From Ferrigenium kumadai (GTDB lineage: Bacteria > Pseudomonadota > Gammaproteobacteria > Burkholderiales > Gallionellaceae): DNA of 64,000 nucleotides. Shown piece after piece: positions 33,272 through 59,663 of the stretch. Position 1 is the stretch's first letter. Each line of letters starts with the position of its first letter. The stretch spans positions 1-64,000 of the forward strand of contig NZ_AP019536.1 of NCBI RefSeq assembly GCF_018324385.1. Direction: 5' to 3'. The notes beneath the pieces were generated by a model. That model was not told the origin of the DNA and did no database searches. It saw only the letters and a program-made list of their open reading frames with translations. Both the position numbers and the translations under genes were made by a program.

Positions 33272-34684
33272 ATGGATCAATCGAATCGTTATGCAAATCT
33301 GAATCTGAAAGAAGCGGATTTGATCGCAGGCGGCAAGCACATGCTGGTTGCTTACAAGCTTATTCCGGCCAAAGGCCACGGCTTCCTGGAAGTGGCTGCT
33401 CACGTTGCAGCTGAATCTTCTACCGGCACCAATGTGGAAGTTTCCACCACCGACGACTTCACACGCGGCGTTGACGCGCTGGTGTACGAAGTAGACGAGA
33501 CCGCATTCGGTGACGACCCTGTCAAGGGCGGCGGCTTGATGAAGATCGCCTATCCGGTCGACTTGTTCGATCCGAACCTGACCGATGGCACCTTCAACAT
33601 TTCCCACATGTGGTCCCTGATCCTGGGTAACAACCAGGGTATGAGCGACCATGCCGGTCTGCGCATGCTGGACTTCCTGGTGCCCGAGTGCATGATGAAG
33701 CATTTCGATGGCCCGTCCGCCAACATCAGCAATCTGTGGAAAGTACTGGGTCGTTCGGAAGTGGACGGCGGCTATATCGCCGGCACCATCATCAAGCCCA
33801 AGCTGGGTCTGCGTCCCGAGCCGTTCGCCAAGGCCTGCTACGACTTCTGGCTGGGTGGCGATTTCATCAAGAACGACGAACCACAAGCTAACCAACCGTT
33901 CTGCCCGATGGAAGTGGTTATGCCGAAGGTGGCAGAAGCCATGGATCGCGCTCAACAGGCAACGGGTCAAGCTAAGCTGTTCTCGGCCAACATCACCGCC
34001 GATTACTACAAGGAAATGATCCATCGCGGTGACTTTGTTCTTAATACGTTCGCCAAATACAACTCTGCTAGCCATGTGGCCTTCCTCGTCGACGGCTTCG
34101 TGACCGGCCCGGCTGGTGTGACCACTTGCCGCCGCGAGTTCCCGGACACCTTCCTGCACTTCCACCGCGCAGGCCACGGTGCCGTCACTTCCTACAAGTC
34201 GCCAATGGGTATGGATCCCCTGTGCTACATGAAGATGGTGCGTTTGATGGGTGCATCCGGTATGCATACCGGTACCATGGGCTACGGCAAGATGGAAGGC
34301 CATGGCAAGGAAACTGTGCTGGCATACATGCTGGAGCGCGATGAGTGCCAAGGACCTTACTTCTACCAGAAGTGGTACGGCATGAAGGCGACCACTCCGA
34401 TCATCTCCGGCGGCATGAACGCACTGCGTCTGCCTGGTTTCTTCCAGAACCTGGGCCACGGCAACGTGATCAACACCTGCGGTGGCGGTGCTTTTGGCCA
34501 CATCGACAGCCCGGCAGCCGGCGGTATCTCCCTCGGCCAGGCTTACGAGTGCTGGAAGACCGGTGCGGATCCGATCGAATACGCGAAGACCCACAAGGAA
34601 TTCGCCCGTGCGTTCGAATCTTTCCCGAAAGATGGCGATAAGCTGTTCCCGGGCTGGCGCGAAAAGCTGGGCGTACATAAGTAA
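33272..34684 (+). CDS. cbbM: Ribulose-1,5-bisphosphate carboxylase/oxygenase, form II
   Basis: Fixes CO2 onto ribulose-1,5-bisphosphate. The 470 residues and sequence are typical of form II. Catalytic K175 is in [14 protein letters not shown], and K200 in [10 protein letters not shown] is the carbamylated lysine (K191 in Rhodospirillum). Loop 6 is GYGKMEG. AGGAGAGAG precedes the ATG. Form II enzymes have low CO2/O2 specificity and suit high-CO2, low-oxygen settings. No small subunit gene is nearby, as expected. It has its own terminator, so it can be expressed above cbbQ. Confidence 0.99.
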
Positions 34685-53814: not shown

Positions 53815-54276
53815 TTAGTTCACGCCCAGCAGTTCGACGTCGAACACCAGCGTCGCATTCGGCGGAATCACACCGCCCGCGCCGCGTGCGCCGTAGCCGA
53901 GCTGAGGCGGGATGACCAGCGTGCGCTGGCCGCCTACCTTCATGCCTTCCACGCCGGCGTCCCAGCCCTTGATCACGTGGCCTGCACCCAGCGGGAATTC
54001 GAACGGCATGCCGCGGTCGCGCGAGCTGTCGAACTTCGCACCCTTGTGATCCGGCGCGGCCTCGTCGTACAGCCAGCCGGTGTAGTGCACGGACACTGTG
54101 CGCCCGGCCTTGGCTTCGGCGCCCTCGCCTGCCTTGACGTCGTTCTTGATCAGCTCGCTCATGCCGGTCTTCTCCATTGTCGGTGCAGCTTGCGGTGCGG
54201 CCTGTTCCGAACAGGCCGTGGTTGAAAATGCGCCTGCGAGCAGCAGTGCCAGCGGTAACAGGGCGATGCGTTTCAT
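53815..54276 (-). CDS. FKBP-type peptidyl-prolyl isomerase, exported
   Basis: A 153-residue exported FKBP-type isomerase. The N-terminus ([22 protein letters not shown]) resembles a lipoprotein signal, but the lipobox is imperfect (T-T-A-C). The FKBP domain covers about 45-153 with [30 protein letters not shown] and [24 protein letters not shown]. It is closely similar to both domains of the tandem FKBP protein encoded two genes upstream, with a 47-base stretch identical at DNA level. Acts in periplasmic folding by inference. Confidence 0.93.
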
Positions 54277-54291
54277 ATCTCGTTCCTCGGT

Positions 54292-54642
54292 TCAGTTAAC
54301 GGAGCTGCGGTAGAACCATACGAGAAAGGCTGCCGTCCGTCCTTCTGTTTCCCACAGTTGCAATACTTTCTCGACGGCTTCGTCGTTCGGCAAGGCGAAT
54401 GCCGGCAACTCGGCCCACTCCCCGCCTTTGTCTGTCGATTGCCCGACGATACGCGCACCGCTTTCCAGCAATGCAAGTATCTCCATCCTGACGAAAGCGA
54501 CGAGCTCGTCTTTTTCCAGGTCGAACATCTGCCCGTCGGAAACGATCTCCCCCAGCGACACGGCCTCGAATGCCGCCGTCTTCAGCGTCTGCTGGATGAC
54601 CTCCTGACGGGTGCGACCGTCGAAGTTTTTTTCCCTGGCCAT
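54292..54642 (-). CDS. Uncharacterised 116-residue cytoplasmic protein
   Basis: I do not recognise the family. The protein is soluble and acidic, begins MAREKNFDGRTRQEVIQQTL, and is predicted mostly helical (about 10-65) with a C-terminal DEAVEKVLQLWETEGRTAAFLVWFY. No signal peptide or known motif. It lies between two FKBP genes, 2 bases after the tandem FKBP gene and 15 bases before the exported FKBP gene, so it is almost certainly cotranscribed with them. Confidence 0.8.
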   Translation of the reverse strand: MAREKNFDGRTRQEVIQQTLKTAAFEAVSLGEIVSDGQMFDLEKDELVAFVRMEILALLESGARIVGQSTDKGGEWAELPAFALPNDEAVEKVLQLWETEGRTAAFLVWFYRSSVN

Positions 54643-54644
54643 AT

Positions 54645-55331
54645 TCAGTTGACCGCCAGCAATTCCACCTCGAACACCAGCGTCGCATTCGGCGGAATCA
54701 CACCGCCCGCGCCGCGCTTGCCGTAGCCCATCTCCGGCGGGATGACCAGCGTGCGCCGCCCGCCGACCTTCATGCCCTGCACGCCCTCGTCCCAGCCCTG
54801 GATCACATGGCCGTGGCCCAGCGGGAAATCGAACGGCTCGTTGCGGTCTCGCGAGCTGTCGAACTTGCGGCCCTTGTGCTCCGGCGCATTCTCGTCGTAC
54901 AGCCAGCCGGTGTAATGCACCGTCACATATCGCCCGGACTGCGCTTCTTCGCCCTCGCCGATTTTGGTGTCCATCATCTCGGTGCGTATCACCTTGAGCA
55001 GCTCCACGTCGAACACCAAGGTCGCGTTCGGCGGGATCACATCGCCCGCGCCGCGCGGGCCATAGCCCATCTCCGGCGGGATCACCAGCGTGCGCTGTCC
55101 ACCTTCCTTCATGCCCTGCACGCCCTCGTCCCAGCCCCTGATGACGCGCCCGCCGCCGAGCGGGAAACCGAACGGGTCGTTGCGGTCGAGCGAGCTGTCG
55201 AACTTCGCGCCCTTGTGGTCGGGCGCGCTCTCGTCATACAGCCAGCCGGTGTAATGCACGATCACGGTTTGGCCCGCCTGCGCTTCCGCGCCTTCGCCCA
55301 GTTTGGTGTCGGTTTTAATCAATTCAGTCAT
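54645..55331 (-). CDS. Tandem-domain FKBP-type peptidyl-prolyl isomerase
   Basis: A 228-residue cytoplasmic protein made of two FKBP domains back to back (about 1-115 and 116-228). Each has [27 protein letters not shown] and [11 protein letters not shown] or [11 protein letters not shown]. The domains are strongly similar, indicating an internal duplication. There is no signal peptide. The ATG at 55331 is preceded by GGA and the gene starts 17 bases after metH. The same domain family appears again in the exported FKBP gene at 53.8 kb. Confidence 0.93.
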
Positions 55332-55348
55332 GTTTTTTCCAGTAATTA

Positions 55349-59035
<3,687 letters not shown>

Positions 59036-59101
59036 GGTGCGTGACTCAAAAAATGAGCGCGGATTTTATCACGCGACCATGCGCATAGCGGGTTGATGAA
59101 T

Positions 59102-59115
59102 TTGAGATAAATCAA
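59102..59115. promoter_or_regulatory. FNR/ANR-like box upstream of bacteriohemerythrin
   Basis: TTGAG-ATAA-ATCAA differs from the FNR consensus TTGAT-N4-ATCAA at one base. TATTAT at 59137-59142 can be the -10 element, placing the start near 59149 and the box centre at about -41, the class II activator position. This predicts oxygen-responsive activation of the hemerythrin gene. It also lies 67 bases upstream of metH on the opposite strand. Confidence 0.7.
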
Positions 59116-59207
59116 TATCACTACAAATTGTATGTATATTATTCGCCGCCGCCTGCGGCATTGTTGGATGGGCATGAACAACATCACGGGAACGATAGGA
59201 GAATTTA

Positions 59208-59663
59208 ATGGGCAAGTTTGTATGGACGGCGCAGCTCGAAATCGGTATCGATGTGATCGACAAGCAACACCGCAGGATCGTGGAATACATCAATCAGCTG
59301 GATGACGCGCGTTCCAGCGGCCATCCGCGCGAGGAGATCGGCAGGGTGGTCAGCGAGCTGGTGGATTACACGCTTTCGCACTTCGCCTTCGAGGAAAGCA
59401 TGCAGGAAGAAGCCGGCTACCCGTTCCTCAAGGCGCACAAGAAGGTGCATGACCTGTTCGCCCAGCGCGTATCCGAATACCAGGCCCGGTTCCTGAGGGG
59501 CGAAGACGTTTCCAGGGAGTTGAACAGCTTGCTGGTCACCTGGCTGTTCAATCACATCAAGCGGGACGATGCGGATTATGTCGAGTCGGTGCAGTCCAAC
59601 CTGCAAAGGCAGAACGACTTTGTGGAAAAGAAGAAGGGATTCTTTTCCCGCTTGTTCAAATAG
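59208..59663 (+). CDS. Bacteriohemerythrin
   Basis: A 151-residue single-domain oxygen-binding di-iron protein. All seven ligands are in place: H21, H58, E62, H77, H81, H116 and D121 (H-HxxxE-HxxxH-HxxxxD). There is no signal peptide or fused domain. AGGAG sits before the ATG. Likely roles are oxygen sensing, storage or delivery under low oxygen, which matches the FNR-like box upstream. Confidence 0.95.
   Translation: MGKFVWTAQLEIGIDVIDKQHRRIVEYINQLDDARSSGHPREEIGRVVSELVDYTLSHFAFEESMQEEAGYPFLKAHKKVHDLFAQRVSEYQARFLRGEDVSRELNSLLVTWLFNHIKRDDADYVESVQSNLQRQNDFVEKKKGFFSRLFK

Follow-up and report, generated by a model that had tools for sequence, protein, structure and literature searches.

A predicted FNR-type class II promoter before a bacteriohemerythrin gene of Ferrigenium kumadai, and a second promoter type at the same site in other Gallionellaceae

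Promoter elements and the hemerythrin gene

How is the gene of an oxygen carrier controlled in a microaerophilic iron oxidizer? The question is raised by Ferrigenium kumadai An22, described as such an organism with a genome of 2,572,603 bp (PMC8265223), in which a bacteriohemerythrin gene lies behind a candidate binding site for the regulator FNR. We analyzed the first 64,000 nucleotides of its contig NZ_AP019536.1, here called the window. The elements on which the argument depends are as follows, in window positions.

55349–59035, minus strand: metH, the divergent neighbour, named by eye from its translation
59063–59068, minus strand: TAAAAT after TGA, recognized by eye as the likely extended −10 of metH
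59093–59098, plus strand: TTGATG, at the position of the −35 in the promoter of box-less relatives
59102–59115, plus strand: FNR box, half-sites TTGAG and ATCAA around ATAA, one mismatch, with the central TA of Gallionellaceae fnr-upstream boxes
59116–59121, plus strand: TATCAC, which matches the −10 of the relatives (TACCAT/TACTAT) minus the final T
59137–59142, plus strand: −10 hexamer TATTAT, 21 nt 3′ of the box, a class II spacing
59149–59150, plus strand: predicted transcript start, placed from the layout of box and −10
59208–59663, plus strand: bacteriohemerythrin gene, 151 amino acids, seven diiron ligands, C-terminal tail KKKGFFSRLFK

A scan of the 64-kb window with the FNR consensus TTGAT-N4-ATCAA found TTGAGATAAATCAA at 59102–59115 on the plus strand, with one mismatch. 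A sequence-only reading had placed a one-mismatch FNR box at about −41 from a plausible start; the box is confirmed, and its center (59108.5) lies at −40.5 from 59149 and at −41.5 from 59150, both being predicted starts. The 172-bp region between metH and the hemerythrin gene holds the box, which is 66 bp away from the start of metH. Between 58900 and 59800 there are no sigma70 promoters by the rule of at least 9 of 12 matches, so TATTAT has no good −35. In addition, TTGATG and TATCAC are spaced exactly as in the promoter of the box-less relatives (17 bp), with the FNR box inside the gap.

We consider it very probable that FNR activates the bacteriohemerythrin gene from a class II position at low oxygen, with the start, the binding, and the activation all predicted. 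We infer that at low oxygen the iron-sulfur FNR dimer (encoded at 445069–445827 of the genome) would bind 59102–59115, approximately 41 bp upstream of the start, and would make up for the lack of a proper −35 by contacting RNA polymerase. The TATTAT −10 would then drive transcription, and the hemerythrin would bind oxygen and supply it to the cbb3 oxidase. Similar layouts are described elsewhere. The site of fnr1 in Herbaspirillum seropedicae is centered at −42 of a determined start, whereas the start in the window is predicted (PMC5934665). In the cld promoter of Ideonella dechloratans, whose −35 and −10 are weak, the site is centered at −41.5 relative to a proposed start, a layout like that of the window; cld was active with FNR in reporter strains, whereas the window promoter is a predicted one (PMC7349173).

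The downstream gene had been read as a bacteriohemerythrin, and its product exceeds two NCBIfam cut-offs in support of this, PRK00808 (206.8 over 109 bits) and bact_hemeryth (132.7 over 84). It also matches PF01814 and solved bacteriohemerythrins such as 4xpx. The residues H21, H58, E62, H77, H81, H116, and D121 are invariant in nine aligned sequences, and the protein carries H-HxxxE-HxxxH-HxxxxD, the diiron ligand signature of bacteriohemerythrins (PMC9388753). The tail KKKGFFSRLFK may resemble the conserved C-terminal tail of a Pseudomonas aeruginosa hemerythrin, which is said in the title of a cited paper to give membrane placement; we regard this likeness as a lead. Three weaker hemerythrin matches exist elsewhere in the F. 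kumadai genome.

The gene order metH/hemerythrin/comM is conserved in many relatives. A second hemerythrin copy directly adjoins the first in L035, L040, L042–L044, and L048, and the window has one copy. FKBP-type domains, recognized by eye, are present beside metH at 53815–55376, in a two-domain open reading frame (54645–55376) and a single-domain one (53815–54276); similar copies stand beside metH in several relatives. The RuBisCO at 33272–34684 of the window passes NCBIfam PRK13475, which we take to be the form II model, and to that extent the form II RuBisCO of the sequence-only reading holds.

Recurrence of the layout and its chance level

Hemerythrin matches at 1e-25 were found in 53 of 158 Gallionellaceae genomes. 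The comparison set consists of 23 distinct loci with a divergent metH upstream at no more than 310 bp. Left out were duplicate retrievals of a contig, G029, whose metH is 862 bp distant because of a tandem hemerythrin copy, and six loci that lack an adjacent metH match (L032, L036, L037, L046, L049, and L144). The hemerythrins of these six show no box of up to two mismatches over 500 bp of upstream sequence (379 bp in L036).

A box with up to two mismatches is present in six of the 23 promoters, namely TTGAGATAAATCAA in F. kumadai (G000), TTGAGTTACATCAA in G001, TTGAGCTAAAACAA with two mismatches in G014, TTGAGCTAAATCAA in both G010 and G098, and TTGACCTATATCAA in G065. These boxes begin 92 to 106 bases 5′ of the start codon, and all six are followed at a gap of 21 or 22 nt by a −10 that reads TATTAT or TATCAT. 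Boxes of up to one mismatch occur in five rows versus 0.26 expected from dinucleotide shuffles, boxes of up to two mismatches in six rows versus 2.7, and boxes of up to two mismatches with a −10 at 21/22 nt in six rows versus 0.05; these shuffle expectations overstate the significance because the rows are related. Hexamers with at least five of six matches to TATAAT stand at 21/22 nt in all six bearers, at the overlapping gap pairs 20/21 and 22/23 in three each, and at the remaining pairs from 4/5 to 33/34 in one bearer row at most. Among the bearers, pairwise identity is 93% over the ten specified positions of the box versus 21–39% in flanking blocks of ten. Because these rows were selected by their box, the weight is carried by the −10 spacing, the diverged flanks, and the central TA; the spacer reads nTAn in all six bearers and lay outside the selection criterion. 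The earlier reading of an FNR-type class II promoter is supported by this recurrence and by the FNR gene in the genome, with the box lacking in 17 of the 23 promoters, including that of G146, the closest hemerythrin relative found (79% identity).

Beyond this set, 22 further hemerythrin loci show a box of up to one mismatch within 150 bp in seven cases, versus 0.24 expected by first-order resampling, and five of the seven have a hexamer with at least four of six matches to TATAAT at 20–23 nt. The 22 loci include the Gallionellaceae MAG L049 and five loci of vague taxonomy (L053, L054, L056, L061, and L063); three of these five belong to the seven with a box.

By count alone, the box is within chance, and the number of boxes in the window or in the genome is uninformative. 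The window holds three sites with up to one mismatch versus 1.40 expected, a number reached by 15 of 100 shuffles, and the whole genome holds 105. A reversed-pattern control gave a count of nine and was judged unfair because the reversed words contain TAG. When the 172-bp intergenic region itself was dinucleotide-shuffled 4000 times, 2.1% of the shuffles contained a box of up to one mismatch and 0.08% a box of this kind followed by a −10 at 21/22 nt; the spacing rule was formulated after the promoter alignment had been viewed. A chance match would fit these counts of sites; against it, the fixed distance to the −10 recurs in five other genomes and the hemerythrin site ranks first among the 100 genomic sites listed of the 105, and we consider chance extremely improbable.

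Among those 100 listed sites, six have a TAnnnT hexamer with at least four of six matches at 21/22 nt on either side, and the hemerythrin site alone reaches a five-of-six −10 at the class II spacing. Four of the six also have the central TA: those before hemerythrin and ccoN, and those at 2077859 and 1701175. The promoter of the cbb3 oxidase (ccoN) has the same box-to-minus-10 layout as the hemerythrin promoter. The site at 2077859–2077872 (L113), with a one-mismatch box, central TA, and −10-like hexamer, precedes a small CxxCH gene that is cytochrome-c-like by eye and has no NCBIfam match at 1e-10. The site at 1701175–1701188 (L112), built in the same way, precedes the gene of a PAS-domain protein. 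Both are candidate FNR targets, the second a doubtful one because its hexamer lies very near possible start codons. Toward hemN, the box between fnr and hemN is followed at 22 nt by CATAGT, a hexamer that escapes the TA rule.

The box might also serve metH, or both divergent genes, as it stands in their shared 172-bp region only 66 bp from the metH start. In the six bearers, the distance from box to metH is 52, 59, 66, 150, 168, or 213 bp, but that from box to hemerythrin −10 is 21 or 22, which makes hemerythrin the likelier target. Moreover, the metH start predicted from TAAAAT puts the box near −52, which is, to our knowledge, not a known activating position. We therefore hold a role of the box at metH to be highly improbable.

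FNR and a second candidate regulator

The F. kumadai genome (G000) consists of a single 2,572,603-bp contig. A search of the genome for FNR/ANR, proposed along with the sequence-only reading, was positive; two proteins exceed the PF13545 cut-off. Their positions in the genome are as follows.

445069–445827, minus strand: FNR with a Cys cluster, NCBIfam Fnr 259.3 versus a 228-bit cut-off
1095869–1096534, minus strand: second Crp/FNR-family protein, recognition helix E-M-V-S-R

FNR contains CSNCNLRELC plus further Cys and a recognition helix ETISR; its cluster and helix residues presumably agree with those of E. coli FNR. The second protein shows no Cys cluster and reaches no NCBIfam cut-off. 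A perfect FNR box stands between fnr and a divergent hemN-like gene (hemN by eye), and another lies approximately 230 bp before ccoN, which is over the TIGR00780 cut-off. FNR orthologs at 1e-40 exist in 122 of the 158 Gallionellaceae genomes, and among the 30 best-matching of these, all 30 loci have a box of up to one mismatch at −250 to +60 of the fnr start. T7 is found in 29 and A8 in all 30 of these boxes, and the mismatch in the window half-site TTGAG is without counterpart in 29. All six bearer genomes have an FNR ortholog, as do 14 of the 17 box-less genomes; none was found at 1e-40 in G088, G115, and G142 (95, 85, and 85% complete).

Another Crp/FNR-family regulator could use the box, for example the cluster-less protein at 1095869–1096534. 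It is over the PF13545 cut-off, its helix E-M-V-S-R resembles the E-T-I-S-R of FNR by eye, and predicted regulons of the FNR-like HcpR are reported to include hemerythrin-like genes (PMC1274295). However, this protein is also present in G088, a member of the bearers' group in the hemerythrin tree that has neither box nor FNR ortholog, and the F. kumadai FNR has perfect boxes of its own at fnr/hemN and ccoN. We regard another regulator as unlikely and FNR as the probable one.

Two promoter types and their meaning

At the corresponding spot, 15 of the 17 box-less promoters and none of the six bearers have TTGNNN-17 bp-TACCAT/TACTAT. The exceptions are G115 and G088. The pattern TTG-17-TACYAT, written after the alignment had been viewed, would be expected in 0.013 rows by mononucleotide shuffles versus the 15 seen, and the looser TTG-n20-TAnnnT in 0.76 rows versus 15. 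Likewise, TTG-16/18-TAnnnT is absent from the upstream regions of all six bearers. Directly adjoining the −10 in six of the 15 sigma70-type promoters is ATCAA, the FNR half-site of the bearers. Judging from its shape, the TTG-17-TACYAT promoter may be constitutive. In G088 (L039, L134; genome 95% complete), the regulator and the box before the metH-linked hemerythrin are both missing.

The window promoter combines the full FNR layout with TTGATG-17-TATCAC, one base short of an acceptable −10. The box fills the 17-bp spacer, its last base is next to TATCAC, and both hexamers match the position of the relatives' promoter. FNR might thus repress an older sigma70 promoter, since polymerase would be blocked by FNR bound in the spacer. 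A comparable arrangement exists before the first tandem hemerythrin copy of G029 (L048 4139–4404), where TTGATA-17-TACTAT encloses the one-mismatch FNR-like repeat TTGAAATTAATCAA; the repeat is without the central TA, and the promoter is a second hybrid-looking one that would also fit repression. However, in every one of the six bearers the old −10 is without its last T and a separate −10 stands at the activation spacing; at the old −35 position TTG is missing from five of them, one of which, G010, carries it shifted by a base. Repression is, in our judgment, very unlikely. Our estimates for the rival explanations overlap and need not sum to one.

Trees of both neighbouring genes were compared with the promoter types. 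The 23-row trees differ from the 23 promoters in that they include the second tandem copy of G029 and omit G176, which lies on a short contig. The hemerythrin tree unites the six bearers with G088 and G029 in one supported group of eight (99/98), and the box label needs three changes there, a number as low in 6 of 500 shuffles. In the metH tree, which disagrees with the hemerythrin tree, the bearers are scattered and four changes are needed (53 of 500 shuffles as low). In a 34-row tree that adds outgroups and more hemerythrin copies, five changes are required (169 of 500 shuffles as low), with the outgroups scored as having no box although L051, L061, and L063 carry one. Thus, given these label tests and the discordant metH tree, a single origin of the box is not established. 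The metH genes form two well-separated groups, approximately 79–84% and 85–91% identical to the window gene, and this division does not agree with the genus labels. The metH locus may have undergone gene transfer or may hold old paralogs.

In the 34-row tree, G000 and 17 rows split from the other 16 at 100/99. Those 16 hold five bearers and five outgroups, with the joining point of the outgroups within them not resolved. The G000 gene is sister to the 17 rows (98/89 for the rest, 100/99 for the whole), which contain all 14 sigma70-type genes in the tree, the first copy of G029, G115, and G100. This arrangement weakly suggests that FNR control would be the older state, with the sigma70-type promoter built over it. 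We give about even chances to an exchange of regulation within a single stretch of DNA, in which the metH-linked hemerythrin of the Gallionellaceae would be driven by either an FNR class II promoter (6/23) or a sigma70-type TTG-17-TACYAT promoter (15/23), with F. kumadai as an intermediate.

Control of a hemerythrin by an FNR-family regulator has parallels. Mhr of P. aeruginosa is a single hemerythrin under the FNR-family sensor Anr (Clay et al. 2020, via PMC12403760), as proposed for the window, and Anr also controls the cbb3 oxidase and hemN (PMC12403760). Unlike Mhr, the window gene belongs to an iron oxidizer and has metH and comM as neighbours, and many relatives are box-less; the likeness is one of regulation. 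In the betaproteobacterial Ca. Accumulibacter phosphatis, a hemerythrin has a putative FNR site and its transcript clusters with cco and hemN; that regulon rests on transcript data, whereas the case for the window promoter comes from genome comparison, and here too the likeness is one of regulation (PMC6446978). Hemerythrins of two iron oxidizers of the same family, Sideroxydans ES-1 and Gallionella ES-2, have been proposed to act in oxygen sensing, storage, or homeostasis, and why ES-1 carries many of these genes was called unknown (PMC3770913); the word FNR is absent from the main text of that paper, and its passages on hemerythrin hold no promoter analysis. Hemerythrin, fnr, and promoter are all absent from a Gallionellaceae pangenome paper (PMC10734462), a B. 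pseudomallei paper (PMC8191878) names hemerythrin in one supporting-figure legend only, and hemerythrin and Ferrigenium were not found together in the open-licence literature. With Anr control in Pseudomonas and predicted FNR control in Accumulibacter, the pairing of FNR and hemerythrin is already known; the promoter exchange at one site might be the less expected part for specialists.

The predicted promoter would extend low-oxygen control of hemerythrin to microaerophilic iron oxidizers. The FNR-type and sigma70-type promoters before the same gene form a natural pair, which makes the purpose of the protein testable, that is, whether it is needed at low oxygen or always. If the exchange is true, one lineage would have freed its oxygen carrier from oxygen control in a few steps, and F. 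kumadai would preserve the intermediate.
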